A stretch of 43,289 bases of DNA from a virus. The stretch lies in IMG/VR virus record IMGVR_UViG_3300049043_000092, positions 1 to 43,289 of that record; one strand, 5' to 3'. Of this stretch, positions 16,324-21,096 are shown in pieces (the first letter of the stretch is position 1; each line of letters begins with the position of its first letter). The position numbers were made by a program, and so were the translations under genes. Under the pieces are notes generated by a model. It made no database searches and was not told the origin of the DNA. It worked only from the letters and a program-made list of their open reading frames with translations.

Positions 16324-16339
16324 ACAGGAGGCACGTCCG

Positions 16340-16668
16340 ATGGATCTGGGTGAGCTGGAGCGGGGTCTGGCTGCTTTTGCGGTGCTGTCGCCGACTGCGT
16401 TTCCAGTGCATCACGCGCAGGTCTTCCTCGCTCGACAGCCTGACAGAGGGCCGCTCACCTACCGAGCCCATCGAGGAGGCCCTTGAGCCTGGACAACGGC
16501 ACGTGTGTCCCGCGTCTGCGCCCGTGCTCGGCTCCGAGCACTCGGCGCGGCTACCCAGGCCACGGCCTGGTGGAGACCTGACCGCGACCCAGTGGGAGGG
16601 CCGCCGCTTCCTCGGTGCGATCGACCGCCAAGGGCCGCGCCATGGTGCGCCAGCTGCAGAAGCTGTGA
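16340..16668 (+). CDS. MarR-like winged-helix regulator, frameshifted
   Basis: ATG 16340 has the ribosome site AGGAGG at 9 bases. The N-terminal helix reads MDLGELERGLAAFAVLSP. Reading across frames gives QVFLA, LTYRAIEEAL, SLDNGT and VSRV, the helix-turn-helix of MarR proteins. The wing is GRRFL and the end VRSTAKGRAMVRQLQKL is the typical C-terminal helix of MarR dimers. About 109 residues, short for MarR (usually 135-150) but complete in architecture. It would bind palindromic DNA as a dimer. Its upstream region carries two palindromic sites. It precedes the integrase by 33 bases. Confidence 0.65.
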
Positions 16669-16701: not shown

Positions 16702-17714
16702 ATGACCAGACCACAGGGCGGCTCTGTCCGCAAAGCTGCCGATGGCAGCCGGAGCGCCGACGTGTCCGTTGAGCACTGGCGTGCGGCGCACCGGCAAGTG
16801 CCGGACCAACGCCGAGGGCCTGGCCCGCAAGCGTGAGCTGCTGGAGCAGCTGCTCAACTCGCAACGCCTCGCCGGTTGGCGCCTGGCCTGTTCTCCCTGC
16901 ATCAGGCCAGGGCCCTGAGCCTGCGGATCCGCTGGAGTGGCCGGGCCTATGAGCGGACGGCTGCGATCTACAGCCAAGCGGTGCTCGATCACTTCGGTAG
17001 CGATTTCCCGGTGCAGGAGATCACCGCGCCCCTGGTTGACGGCTGGCGCCAGCAGCTGCTGGCCCAGGGCAACCGCCGGCACGGTCAACATGAAGGTGTC
17101 GGCCCTGCGCTCGATGCTGGCCGATGCTCACCTCCATGGGCATCTGGCAGCGGTGCCCACCATGCCCCGCCAGCTGCGGCTGGCCAACACCAAGGACCGG
17201 GTGTTCAGCGATGACGAGCGCGACCTGCTTCTGCCGGTTGCTGGTGCAACGCGGTGAACCCGCCGCGGCCGACCTGCTGGTGTTCCTGCTGGAGACCGCC
17301 TGCCGGTGGGGTGAAGCGGAACGCCTGAAGGGCGGCGATGTGGACCTGGCGGCCGGTCGGGTGACGTCCTGGCTACCAAGAACGGCAAGCCCCGCTCAGT
17401 GCCGCTGACCCGCCGTGCCATGGATGCCATCGCACCGCATCTGCCAGCGGTGCAGACCCATCGGGTGTGGCCCTATGCCTACTGGCAGTTCAAGCGCCTG
17501 TTTGAGCAGGTGAAGGCCGCGGCCGGCATCGACGACCCGGCGCTGACGATCCACACCACCCGCCATACGTGCGCCAGCAAGCTGGCCAGCCGGGGCATCC
17601 CACTGCATCAGCTGATGGCCTACGGAGGGTGGACCTCCCTGGCTTCAGTGCAGCGCTACCTGCACCTGCACACACGACGCCTTGGCCAGCTGCGTGGCCG
17701 CGTTGGAGGCGTAA
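16702..17714 (+). CDS. int: Tyrosine recombinase (phage integrase), frameshifted
   Basis: About 335 residues when frames are joined (changes near 16770, 16890, 17085, 17240, 17375 and 17672). The N-terminal arm/core-binding part includes NAEGLARKRELLEQLL and YERTAAIYSQAVLDHFG. The catalytic domain has the first Arg in ETACRWGEAERLKGGDVDL, a Lys-bearing NGKPRSVPL turn, HTTRHTCASKL with the His and second Arg, GGW in place of the second His, and the nucleophile Tyr in VQRYLHLH. In the alternative frame the end is HDALASCVAALEA with TAA at 17712-17714, the usual terminal helix of this family. It would integrate the genome into a host tRNA gene; the attachment-like sequence lies 100 bases downstream. 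The start follows an A/C-rich leader. Confidence 0.9.
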
Positions 17715-17741
17715 AGTACATGCGTGCACCGGATCCAAAAA

Positions 17742-17779
17742 ACTGCCGCAGCTTTCCGCAGTCTGCGGAGTTCGGCAGT
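17742..17779. promoter_or_regulatory. Nested hairpin downstream of integrase
   Basis: ACTGCCG (17742-17748) pairs with CGGCAGT (17773-17779) and encloses TCCGCA/TGCGGA with a three-base loop. No T-tract follows, so it is more likely part of the attachment region or an RNA fold than a simple terminator. Confidence 0.55.
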
Positions 17780-17813
17780 CGGGTAAATCCCGAGATCCGT
17801 TGGCATCGACTGG

Positions 17814-17854
17814 GCGGGGGCATGGCGAAACGGGAGACGCAGCGGACTTAAAAA
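17814..17854 (+). other. Probable attP: partial tRNA-Leu(UAA)-like sequence
   Basis: The stretch reads as the 5' half of a leucine tRNA: acceptor strand GCGGGGG, then ATGGCGAAACGG-GAGACGC for the D-arm, and GCGGACTTAAAA for the anticodon arm, with the TAA anticodon in CTTAAAA. The 3' half (variable arm, T-arm, acceptor) is missing. It lies 100 bases downstream of the integrase. A host tRNA-Leu match next to the integrase was reported for cyanophage P-SSP7, which supports an attachment-site core. Confidence 0.8.
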
Positions 17855-17875
17855 CCGTTTCGCACATCTGAACAT

Positions 17876-17928
17876 CTGCAGAGCAAAGGCCATGACTCGC
17901 TTTGCGGGTTCATGGCCCACCTCTGCAG
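17876..17928. promoter_or_regulatory. Long two-stem hairpin between attP and RNA polymerase
   Basis: CTGCAGAG (17876-17883) pairs perfectly with CTCTGCAG (17921-17928), and inside it GGCCATGA (17888-17895) pairs with TCATGGCC (17910-17917). The 53-base structure lies 47 bases before the RNA polymerase start. Confidence 0.65.
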
Positions 17929-17974: not shown

Positions 17975-20331
17975 ATGTCGTTTTGCGTTTCATCCACCCC
18001 GGTGGACGAACAGCGTCAGCGTCAGCAACGGGAGTTTGAACGGGCCCAACATCGAGCGATCAACAGCCGGGCCGAGCTGGTCGCCACAGGCCGCGAGGCG
18101 CTGACCGAACACGGCCGGCAACTGCTCGGTCGGAAAACGCCGAGCGGGTGACCGTGGCCCTGGGCCTGCTGCTAGAGGAGCTGCTGGCCAACCCGCACAA
18201 GGGCGGCGCGGCATCTGAGCTGCTGGCCGCTGCTGCTGCTGGTGCAACCGCGGCCCCAGGTCGGTGGTGCTGGTGGCGCTGTCGGCCCTGCTCGACAGCC
18301 ATCAGCCAGGCGCGACACCGAGCGAATCGGTGGCCAATGCCATCGGCCGGGCAGTGGAACAGGAGGTGCGGGCCCAGCGGGTGGAGGCCAACCGCTCAGC
18401 CGCGCTTGCTACGTTTGCTGCGTGCGCCGCCTCGGGTGCGCGCCATGGCCAGCCCGAAGGTGCTCCGGGCACTGCAGCTCGATCCCAGCAGCCTGGGAAC
18501 CAGCCCAACGGCGATGAGGTGGGCCTGCTGTTGCTGGAGCTGATCAGCACCAGCACCAGCCTCTGGTGACGCTGTCGCGCACCGCTCGGGCCGTCGGCGC
18601 CAGGCTGGTGGAGCCCAGCGAGGCGACGCAGCCAGCTGTTGCGCGAGGGCCATGCCGCAGCGCCTGCAAGCCGCGCCAGCTGGCTGCAGCTGGTGCAGCC
18701 GCTGGACTGGGAGGGGATGCGCAGCGGCGGCGGACACCTGGGCAACGCCGAGCCGCTGGTGCGCAGCGCGGCCGGCCACGACCTCGAGCTACCTCACGCC
18801 TCGAGGTGCTGGCGCCCGGCTGCCGGACGTGGTGAACGCCATCGCAGCGCCAGCAGCTGGAGATCGACCCGTGGATGGTGAGCCATCCAGCGGCAGGCCT
18901 GGGACGGCAGGCATCGAGGGCCTGTTCACGGTGCCTCGCGCCACCACCAAGCGCAGGCGAGGAGCCGCGAGCGGGTGCAGATTGAAGCCAGGCCTGCGGG
19001 AGTGCGAGGAGCTGGCCGGCCGGCCGGTGTGGTTCAGCTATTGCCTGGACTTTCGCGGCCGGCTCTACAGCCGCCAACCGCTATGCCACCCACCAGGGCC
19101 CCGACCACCAGAAAGGCCTGCGTGCTGTTCGGCCGTGGTGAACCGCTGCAGCGTGGAGGCGCTTCGAGTGGTTGCTGAAGGCCGCGGCGGGCCACTGGGG
19201 ACTGCGCAGGCAGCTGGGCTGAGCGGCTGCGGTGGGGCCGCGAACGCCTGCAGGACATGGCCGCCGCTGGTGGCTGCGCCGCTGGAGCAGGTGGGCTGTG
19301 GCGCCAGGCCAAAGACCCCTGGCAGTTCCTGCAGCTGTGCCGTGCCATCCAGCAGCAGGTCGAAGACCCCAGCAGCGCCTGCCGGGTGCCGGTGCGGTTC
19401 GATCAGACCTGCTCAGGCGTTGGGCATCGCCGCGGCCTTGATGCGTGATCGCCAGCTGGCAAGGCTCACCAACATCTGCGGCACCACCCGCCGCGATCTC
19501 TATGGCCATGTGGCAGAGAAGCTGTCTGCCCTGCTGGAACGTGACCTGCACGCCGGGCCGTTGAAACATGGCGGCTGGGCTGAGTTCTGGCTTGGCGCTG
19601 GGCGTCGATCGCACGATCACCAAGGCGCCGGTGATGAGCACCTGCTACGGCAGCCAGTACATGGGCCACGTTGAGCAGCTGGATGGCGGTGCTGGAGGAG
19701 CGCAAGGCGCGGCTGCCGGTGCAGCACTGGGAATGGGCTTACGTGAAACCGGCGCAGTACCTGGCCAAGCGGCTGAAGACAGTGCTCGATGAGGACATGG
19801 CCAGCTGTGTGCAGCTGCGGGCCTGGATCAGTGGCACCTGCCGGTTGGTGGTGCGCAAGGAGCGCAAGTTGCGCTGGATTGGTCCGATGGATTTCCCGGT
19901 GGAGCTGGGCCGCCAGCACGACCAACGCCAGGCCGTGAACAGCCTCACCCGTGGCCGGCGGCGGTGGCAGGCCGCCACCAATGCGGTGACAGCAGACGGC
20001 CTGAGCGCCTCGGCCACCAACCGCTCGATCACCGCCAACGTCATCCACAGCTTTGACGCGGCCTTCTGCCATGCCGTCATCTGCGCAGCTGCAGACCACG
20101 GCATTGACGTGCTGACGAATCACGACTGCTTTGCCGTGACTCCTAGTAATGCAGGCTGGTTGCATCACACGCTGCTCGACCTGATGCGCAGCACCTACGC
20201 TGCTGATTGGCTGGATGACGTGGCAAGGCAGATACGCTGCAGCAACAGGGATCTGGCAATCACTGCACCGCCAATGGTGGGGGATCTCGTGCCCCGGCGA
20301 GATCGGCCAAAACCCGATGCTGTTTTCCTAG
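17975..20331 (+). CDS. T7-type single-subunit DNA-directed RNA polymerase, frameshifted
   Basis: Read across many frameshifts from ATG 17975 (MSFCVSSTPVDEQ) to a likely TAG at 20329-20331 after NPMLFS, giving about 785 residues (T7 RNAP has 883). Conserved motifs are visible in order: LDFRGRLYS (T7 DWRGRVY); RFDQTCSG with the first catalytic Asp; RTITKAPVMSTCYGSQ with the Arg, Lys and Tyr of the O-helix; and VIHSFDAAFCHAV followed by TNHDCFAVTP, containing the His-Asp of motif C. The N-terminal promoter-contact region is the least clear because of indels. It transcribes late phage genes from phage-specific promoters. It sits directly after the integrase and attachment region, as in P-SSP7-type cyanophages. 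Confidence 0.92.
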
Positions 20332-20372
20332 GAGGCTTGCGGCCAACGTCCGATGGCTCTAGGGTCAATGTG

Positions 20373-20386
20373 CTGCATACATGCAG
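20373..20386 (+). promoter_or_regulatory. 14-bp palindromic element (perfect copy, before SSB)
   Basis: CTGCA-TACA-TGCAG, 42 bases after the RNA polymerase stop and 21 bases before the SSB ATG. An in-frame ATG inside the element (20381) could extend SSB by nine residues but is less likely. Confidence 0.6.
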
Positions 20387-20407
20387 CTCTTTGACAGCTC
20401 GTTTGAC

Positions 20408-21096
20408 ATGGCACGCGAATTGATGACCACCCCAGCAGGCCTGGCCTACTGGGCAAAGGTGTTTGACCCTGAAGAAAACCGCCTCGATCCCGGCAAGCCA
20501 CGGTCTTGGTCGGTGTCCCTTGCCTTAAAGCAAGACAGCAACGAAGCGGTGCAGCTGATGCAGCAGATCGAGGAGGCGTTCTTCTCGATTCATGGCCAAG
20601 GCGCCAAGCCATCCAAAAACGGTTGGCCATTTGTGGATCAGACCGACAAGGACGACAACCGCACCGGGCTGGTGGAGTTCCGCTTCAAGAAGAACGAAAC
20701 CACCCGCAAGGGCAACACCCTGCACGCCGCCGGCCGTCTACGACGCCAAGAAAGGCGCCGTGGCCAGCAGGAACCCTGATCGGCAACGGCAGCACCATCA
20801 AGGTGGCCTTCTCGGCCTGGGGCTGGGAAGACATGACCGGCCGCAAGGAGGCATCAGCCTCAGCCTGGAGGCGTTGCAGGTGCTGGATCTGGTGCCCTAC
20901 GAGGGCAAGGATCCGCGCGATGCTTTTGACGAGGAGGAGGGCTACGTGGCTGACACCAAGGCCGCTGCGGCTTTCCCGGAGCAGCAGCAGGAGGAAGAGG
21001 CGCTGACACCAAGCCAGCGGCATCCAGCAGCGTGCCGCTGCAGTGCCGAGGTTGAACGCAAACCTCGACGACGACGACGAAGAGTCGCCTTTCTGA
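20408..21096 (+). CDS. Single-stranded DNA-binding protein (T7 gp2.5-like), frameshifted
   Basis: ATG 20408 (MARELMTTPAGLAYWAKVF) opens a protein of about 229 residues (T7 gp2.5 has 232). The segment SWSVSLALKQDSNEAVQLMQQIEEA, then GWPFVDQTDKDD and LVEFRFKKNE, fits the OB-fold of this family. After frameshifts near 20750 and 20855 it continues NGSTIKVAFSAWGWED and SLSLEALQVLDLVPY. In the last frame it ends NLDDDDEESPF, the acidic tail with terminal Phe that gp2.5 uses to contact replication partners. The presence of this tail is notable because no phage DNA polymerase was found. Confidence 0.85.

Follow-up and report, generated by a model that had tools for sequence, protein, structure and literature searches.

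Half a tRNA-Leu(UAA) gene behind the integrase as a probable attachment site in a T7-like virus related to freshwater cyanophage S-SRP02

In this virus the segment after the tyrosine integrase gene very probably acts as attP, the phage's attachment site in a module for site-specific integration. The window, by which we mean the whole 43,289-nucleotide stretch that was analysed (IMG/VR virus record IMGVR_UViG_3300049043_000092), is T7-like, with terminase, RNA polymerase and other homologues of its nearest annotated relative, the freshwater Synechococcus phage S-SRP02, spread across the record. It carries an integrase of the tyrosine recombinase family followed by the 5' half of a tRNA-Leu gene; this arrangement is conserved, the tRNA homology ends at the anticodon loop, and the anatomy is common to the window and P-SSP7. 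The attachment-site reading, already put forward in an initial annotation of this DNA, is strongly supported by the anatomy, by its conservation in every relative found, and by the precedent of two phages of the same anatomy, S-TIP37 and P-SSP7, which integrate at tRNA-Leu during lytic infection and form no stable lysogens (PMC8776855). In that work the attP motifs corresponded to the first half of tRNA-Leu, and deletion of either int or attP in S-TIP37 demonstrated that both are required (PMC8776855). Coordinates of the features are collected in Table 1.

Table 1. Features of the candidate integration module and its surroundings, in window coordinates.
Feature	Position	Strand	Evidence
MarR-like winged-helix regulator gene, frameshifted in record	16340..16665	+	45-63% identity to S-SRP02 p020 by tblastn, over two frames
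Tyrosine integrase gene, frameshifted in record	about 16714-17714	+	77% nucleotide identity to S-SRP02 integrase; Pfam PF00589; frame switches; points toward tRNA half
Candidate arm-type sites (P arm) for the integrase: CTGCCG/CGCAGTC/GGCAGTC repeat cluster upstream of tRNA half	17741..17780	.	Direct repeats; arm hexamers repeated in most relatives
tRNA-Leu(UAA) 5' half running from acceptor strand to anticodon loop (putative core region of attP)	17816..17853	+	Primer consensus; cyanophage tRNA-Leu matches; relatives keep it after int
Candidate left core-type arm GCAGCGGA, on the 5' side of the anticodon stem	17839..17846	+	Kept in Leu- and Met-type sites
Presumed 7-bp overlap CTTAAAA, anticodon loop	17847..17853	+	tRNA identity stops here in Leu-type relatives and P-SSP7; Met-type loop CTCATAA
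Dyad CTGCAGAG ... CTCTGCAG past the core; P' arm sites or an RNA hairpin are candidate roles	17876..17928	.	Conserved in relatives
T7-like RNA polymerase gene, frameshifted in record	18011..20328	+	tblastn with S-SRP02 p025; PHROG 414 RNA polymerase for window 19671-20420

The half tRNA starts approximately 100 nt past the end of the integrase and has its anticodon, TAA, at 17849-17851; the initial annotation had recognised it at 17814-17854, bounds that we refined by a few bases. Starting at 17816, 34 bases agree at 31 positions with a consensus of cyanobacterial trnL(UAA) primers, which we took from the published primers quoted in PMC8220813; the next best fit in the window reached 23/34 on the plus strand and the best on the minus strand 22/34, indicating that a tRNA-Leu(UAA) half is there by more than chance. 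Annotated cyanophage tRNA-Leu genes match it at 86-89% identity over 37-43 nt. The longest exact run shared with the complete tRNA-Leu(UAA) genes that we compared was 19 nt, none of them being identical; this counts against an attachment site, although for the D-loop variant found in the window runs of 25-26 nt are shared with S-SRP02 and the loci L039, L005 and L007. Neither ARAGORN nor Rfam recognised a complete tRNA in the window, as would be expected since only half of one is present.

The half tRNA stands between two other features of such a module, with the integrase gene directly upstream and the T7-like RNA polymerase gene after it, and a regulator gene precedes the integrase. The presence of this regulator, together with the KilA-N gene and the Arc-like protein of S-SRP02, lends something to a reading in which the phage would be truly temperate and integrate here, its stable lysogens being maintained through repression by the MarR-like protein (or by KilA-N or Arc-like proteins in relatives). 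We consider this improbable. The S-SRP02 homologue of the window gene, p020, falls in PHROG 9665 and is 37% identical to P-SSP7 gp0.7; because this family is shared with P-SSP7 and S-TIP37, neither of which lysogenises stably, a MarR-like regulator is no argument for lysogeny, and the hint of prophage life that the initial annotation drew from the regulators finds no support. In addition, KilA-N lies between int and attP in some relatives only and has no match in the window, and a scan of early S-SRP02 proteins turned up no CI-like repressor.

The integrase itself has many indels relative to its relatives and no single open frame in the window. Its C-terminal part alone matches the Pfam family Phage_integrase (E = 4e-14), and the S-SRP02 homologue matches the same family (E = 3e-20) and the PHROG integrase (1e-46). 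The catalytic residues remain legible, with the Arg in TACRWGEAERL, the H-x-x-R motif in IHTTRHTCASKL and the Tyr in SVQRYLHLHT, in agreement with the tyrosine recombinase first described as carrying these motifs and ending at 17714. It could be argued from the broken frame that the integrase is dead and the site a relic, a concern that the initial annotation had also raised; this appears very unlikely, since most window genes with S-SRP02 homologues between approximately 11 and 36 kb are likewise split over two to three frames, including those for RNA polymerase, capsid, portal and tail tube, while every gene reads in one frame in the five relatives examined, whose integrases are intact. Within the first 11 kb of the window, the genes for terminase and tail fibre are unbroken. 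Uneven, low-quality sequence in the window, and not decay of the integrase, is therefore behind the broken frames.

To assess conservation, we used the S-SRP02 integrase as a query against IMG/VR and obtained 17 relative loci, in each of which a tRNA 5' half comes after int (14 of tRNA-Leu(UAA) and 3 with a CAU anticodon), as it does in S-SRP02 itself and in the contig L003. A separate scan of IMG/VR with the tRNA-Leu half as a pattern returned 37 contigs, in 31 of which an integrase immediately precedes the half; of the remaining six, two (L023 and L054) carry complete tRNA-Leu genes and resemble cyanomyophages. Although the similar 5' half of the tRNA-Leu(UAA) genes in these cyanomyophages might suggest that the half tRNA is what decay has left of a tRNA gene once carried by the phage and takes no part in integration, we regard this as very unlikely, because the half recurs beside the integrase in every int-bearing relative found, also where the lineages have unrelated flanks, and because the halves end at the anticodon loop or stem, whereas decay would preserve neither the end base nor the position.

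Several individual loci deserve mention. L003 (RFQY01000156.1), the sole contig found in one scan of genome contigs, is a 6.6-kb contig binned in a Rhodobacteraceae metagenome-assembled genome; its integrase resembles that of S-SRP02 and is accompanied by a tRNA-Leu(UAA) half, and it is probably a misbinned cyanophage. In L026 and L033, which come from two samples, the tRNA-Leu half lies beside the RNA polymerase gene without an integrase, and the terminase block adjoins in inverted order. In the short contig L038 (88-1566), the RNA polymerase is cut down to its N-terminal part, which comes after the tRNA half and leads into the peptidase/terminase region; this is either a deletion form or an assembly chimera. 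Phage S31-C1 (L076, 2501-2573) has a complete tRNA-Met overlapping the 3' end of its integrase gene, unlike the half tRNAs seen elsewhere. When IMG/VR was scanned for whole tRNA-Leu(UAA) genes, in which an attR junction was sought, no related integrase adjoined them in the right arrangement; one hit (L068) looks, by its open reading frames, like an unrelated alphaproteobacterial prophage. Neither attB nor attL nor attR came to light in the sequences searched, which counts against the reading.

Within the site, identity to the tRNA extends to the end of the anticodon loop and no further, and a partial inverted copy of the stem arm comes next. The resulting core layout is GCAGCGGA-CTTAAAA-nCCG in Leu-type sites and GCAGCGGA-CTCATAA-TCCG in Met-type sites. 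The window has a mismatch at the first base past the loop, leaving a weakened right core arm, and this counts against our reading. Short repeats flank the core, such as GCAGAC/TCTGC in the S-SRP02 clade and others, for example CAACCA, in distant clades; arm hexamers are repeated in most relatives, their sequence differing by lineage. The initial annotation had mentioned operator-like sites in this phage, and we agree that the repeats exist, although they are better read as candidate arm sites. Many relatives (L010 at 6227, L012 at 6451, L058 at 5083 and L028 at 2582) have a palindrome, GTGGATGCGTCCAC, that lies 100-150 nt before the tRNA half; it is degenerate in the window (17716) and may be an operator. 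At 17876-17928 and the equivalent positions in relatives, between the tRNA half and the RNA polymerase gene, an inverted repeat, TGCAGAGCA ... TCTGCA, is strictly conserved; after it comes GGTGGGGTGGAATT, which in the window reads GGTATGCGGTGGAATA. The downstream dyad has a strong predicted fold in the window (z = -4.1); since there is hardly any covariation across relatives, a DNA site is as likely as an RNA hairpin. No promoter-like sites were found between int and the RNA polymerase gene in the window.

Comparison of Leu- and Met-type relatives suggests that the target of integration can change within a lineage. The Met-type (CAU) locus L084 and the Leu(UAA)-type locus L058 are 96% identical over 3.9 kb and have integrases that are 99.4% identical, yet they carry different tRNA halves; the difference at the site (5190-5240 in L058) is confined to approximately 40 nt of tRNA and a few bases after it, between flanks that are identical or nearly so. 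In the integrase tree, the Met-type L006 and L008 nest among the Leu-type L010, L017 and L058 with strong support; support is weaker for the grouping of the Met-type L014 with a Leu-type phage. The two kinds of half have the anticodon-stem arms GCAGCGGA/TCCG in common and differ in the 7-bp loop, suggesting that one integrase could serve several tRNA genes. On balance we favour the view that this lineage changes its target by exchange of the tRNA half alone, with one integrase serving tRNA genes that share the anticodon stem and a 40-nt cassette sufficient to retarget the phage. The label tRNA-Met for the CAU halves refers to the anticodon and to similarity to the annotated tRNA-Met of phage S31-C1, and such a half may instead derive from the isoleucine tRNA with a CAU anticodon.

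We can postulate how the module would operate. The tyrosine integrase would bind the arm-type repeats and act at a core made of the anticodon-stem arms GCAGCGGA ... TCCG; in the host tRNA-Leu(UAA) gene, strands would be exchanged within CTTAAAA, the 7-bp anticodon loop. Cyanobacterial trnL(UAA) genes are known to harbour a group I intron, which in a host would interrupt attB. The Met-type sites, which keep the stem arms and change the loop, are as this assignment of the overlap predicts. Upon integration, the 5' half supplied by the phage would join the 3' half of the host gene, and since the phage half is oriented the same way as int, a whole tRNA gene would be rebuilt at the int end, while the displaced host 5' half would be left at the other end. 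Integration by this phage itself, if it follows P-SSP7 and S-TIP37, would be transient and not true lysogeny. Counting against the scheme, the early S-SRP02 proteins that were scanned included no recognisable excisionase.

The combination of an integrase with a tRNA half is known from marine T7-like cyanophages and apparently had gone unreported in the freshwater lineage of S-SRP02, to which the range of the module is now extended. S-SRP02, on Synechococcus SR-C1, is a cultured isolate with a site that can be tested. The exchange of Leu and Met halves between near-identical phages represents a natural experiment on how tyrosine integrases gain new targets, and bears on why essentially lytic phages retain an integration module. 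The tRNA half could also be used for host assignment.

Among known systems, one parallel is P-SS2, a Prochlorococcus siphovirus whose 53-bp site contains 36 bp of tRNA-Met (PMC2784084). It resembles the Met-type relatives in being a cyanophage with an integrase and a tRNA-Met-derived site, a likeness drawn from its published description, and differs from the window in being a siphovirus with bet/exo. The phages S-TIP37, S-CBP1, S-CBP2 and S-SRP01 have the same order as the window, with int followed by a tRNA-Leu 5' half and the RNA polymerase gene, but their half is that of tRNA-Leu(CAG) and not UAA. S-SRP02, isolated from freshwater in Singapore (PMC8790148), has an unannotated tRNA-Leu(UAA) half at 16335-16381 like that of the window; in contrast to the window, this half lies 1.4 kb past int, behind the KilA-N gene. 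The published description of S-SRP02, in the portions accessible to us, reports no tRNA genes and makes no mention of an attachment site (PMC8790148). P-SSP7 (L069) and P-SSP2 (L074) have TATAAT approximately 20-30 nt upstream of the half, where a tRNA gene rebuilt by integration would need a promoter, while the window lineage is without it. A host-type -10 element supplied by the phage for the rebuilt tRNA was accordingly considered and set aside as a general feature, being clear only in these two phages and not enriched in the window lineage. The integrase of P-SSP7 is also only about 25% identical to that of S-SRP02. P-SSP7 has the same order as the window, with the MarR-like regulator (gp0.7), int, the tRNA-Leu(UAA) half and the RNA polymerase gene, and the match to tRNA-Leu just after its integrase, which the initial annotation had mentioned, was indeed found: in both P-SSP7 and P-SSP2 a tRNA-Leu(UAA) half lies 120-140 nt after int, and its homology stops at the same base as in the window.
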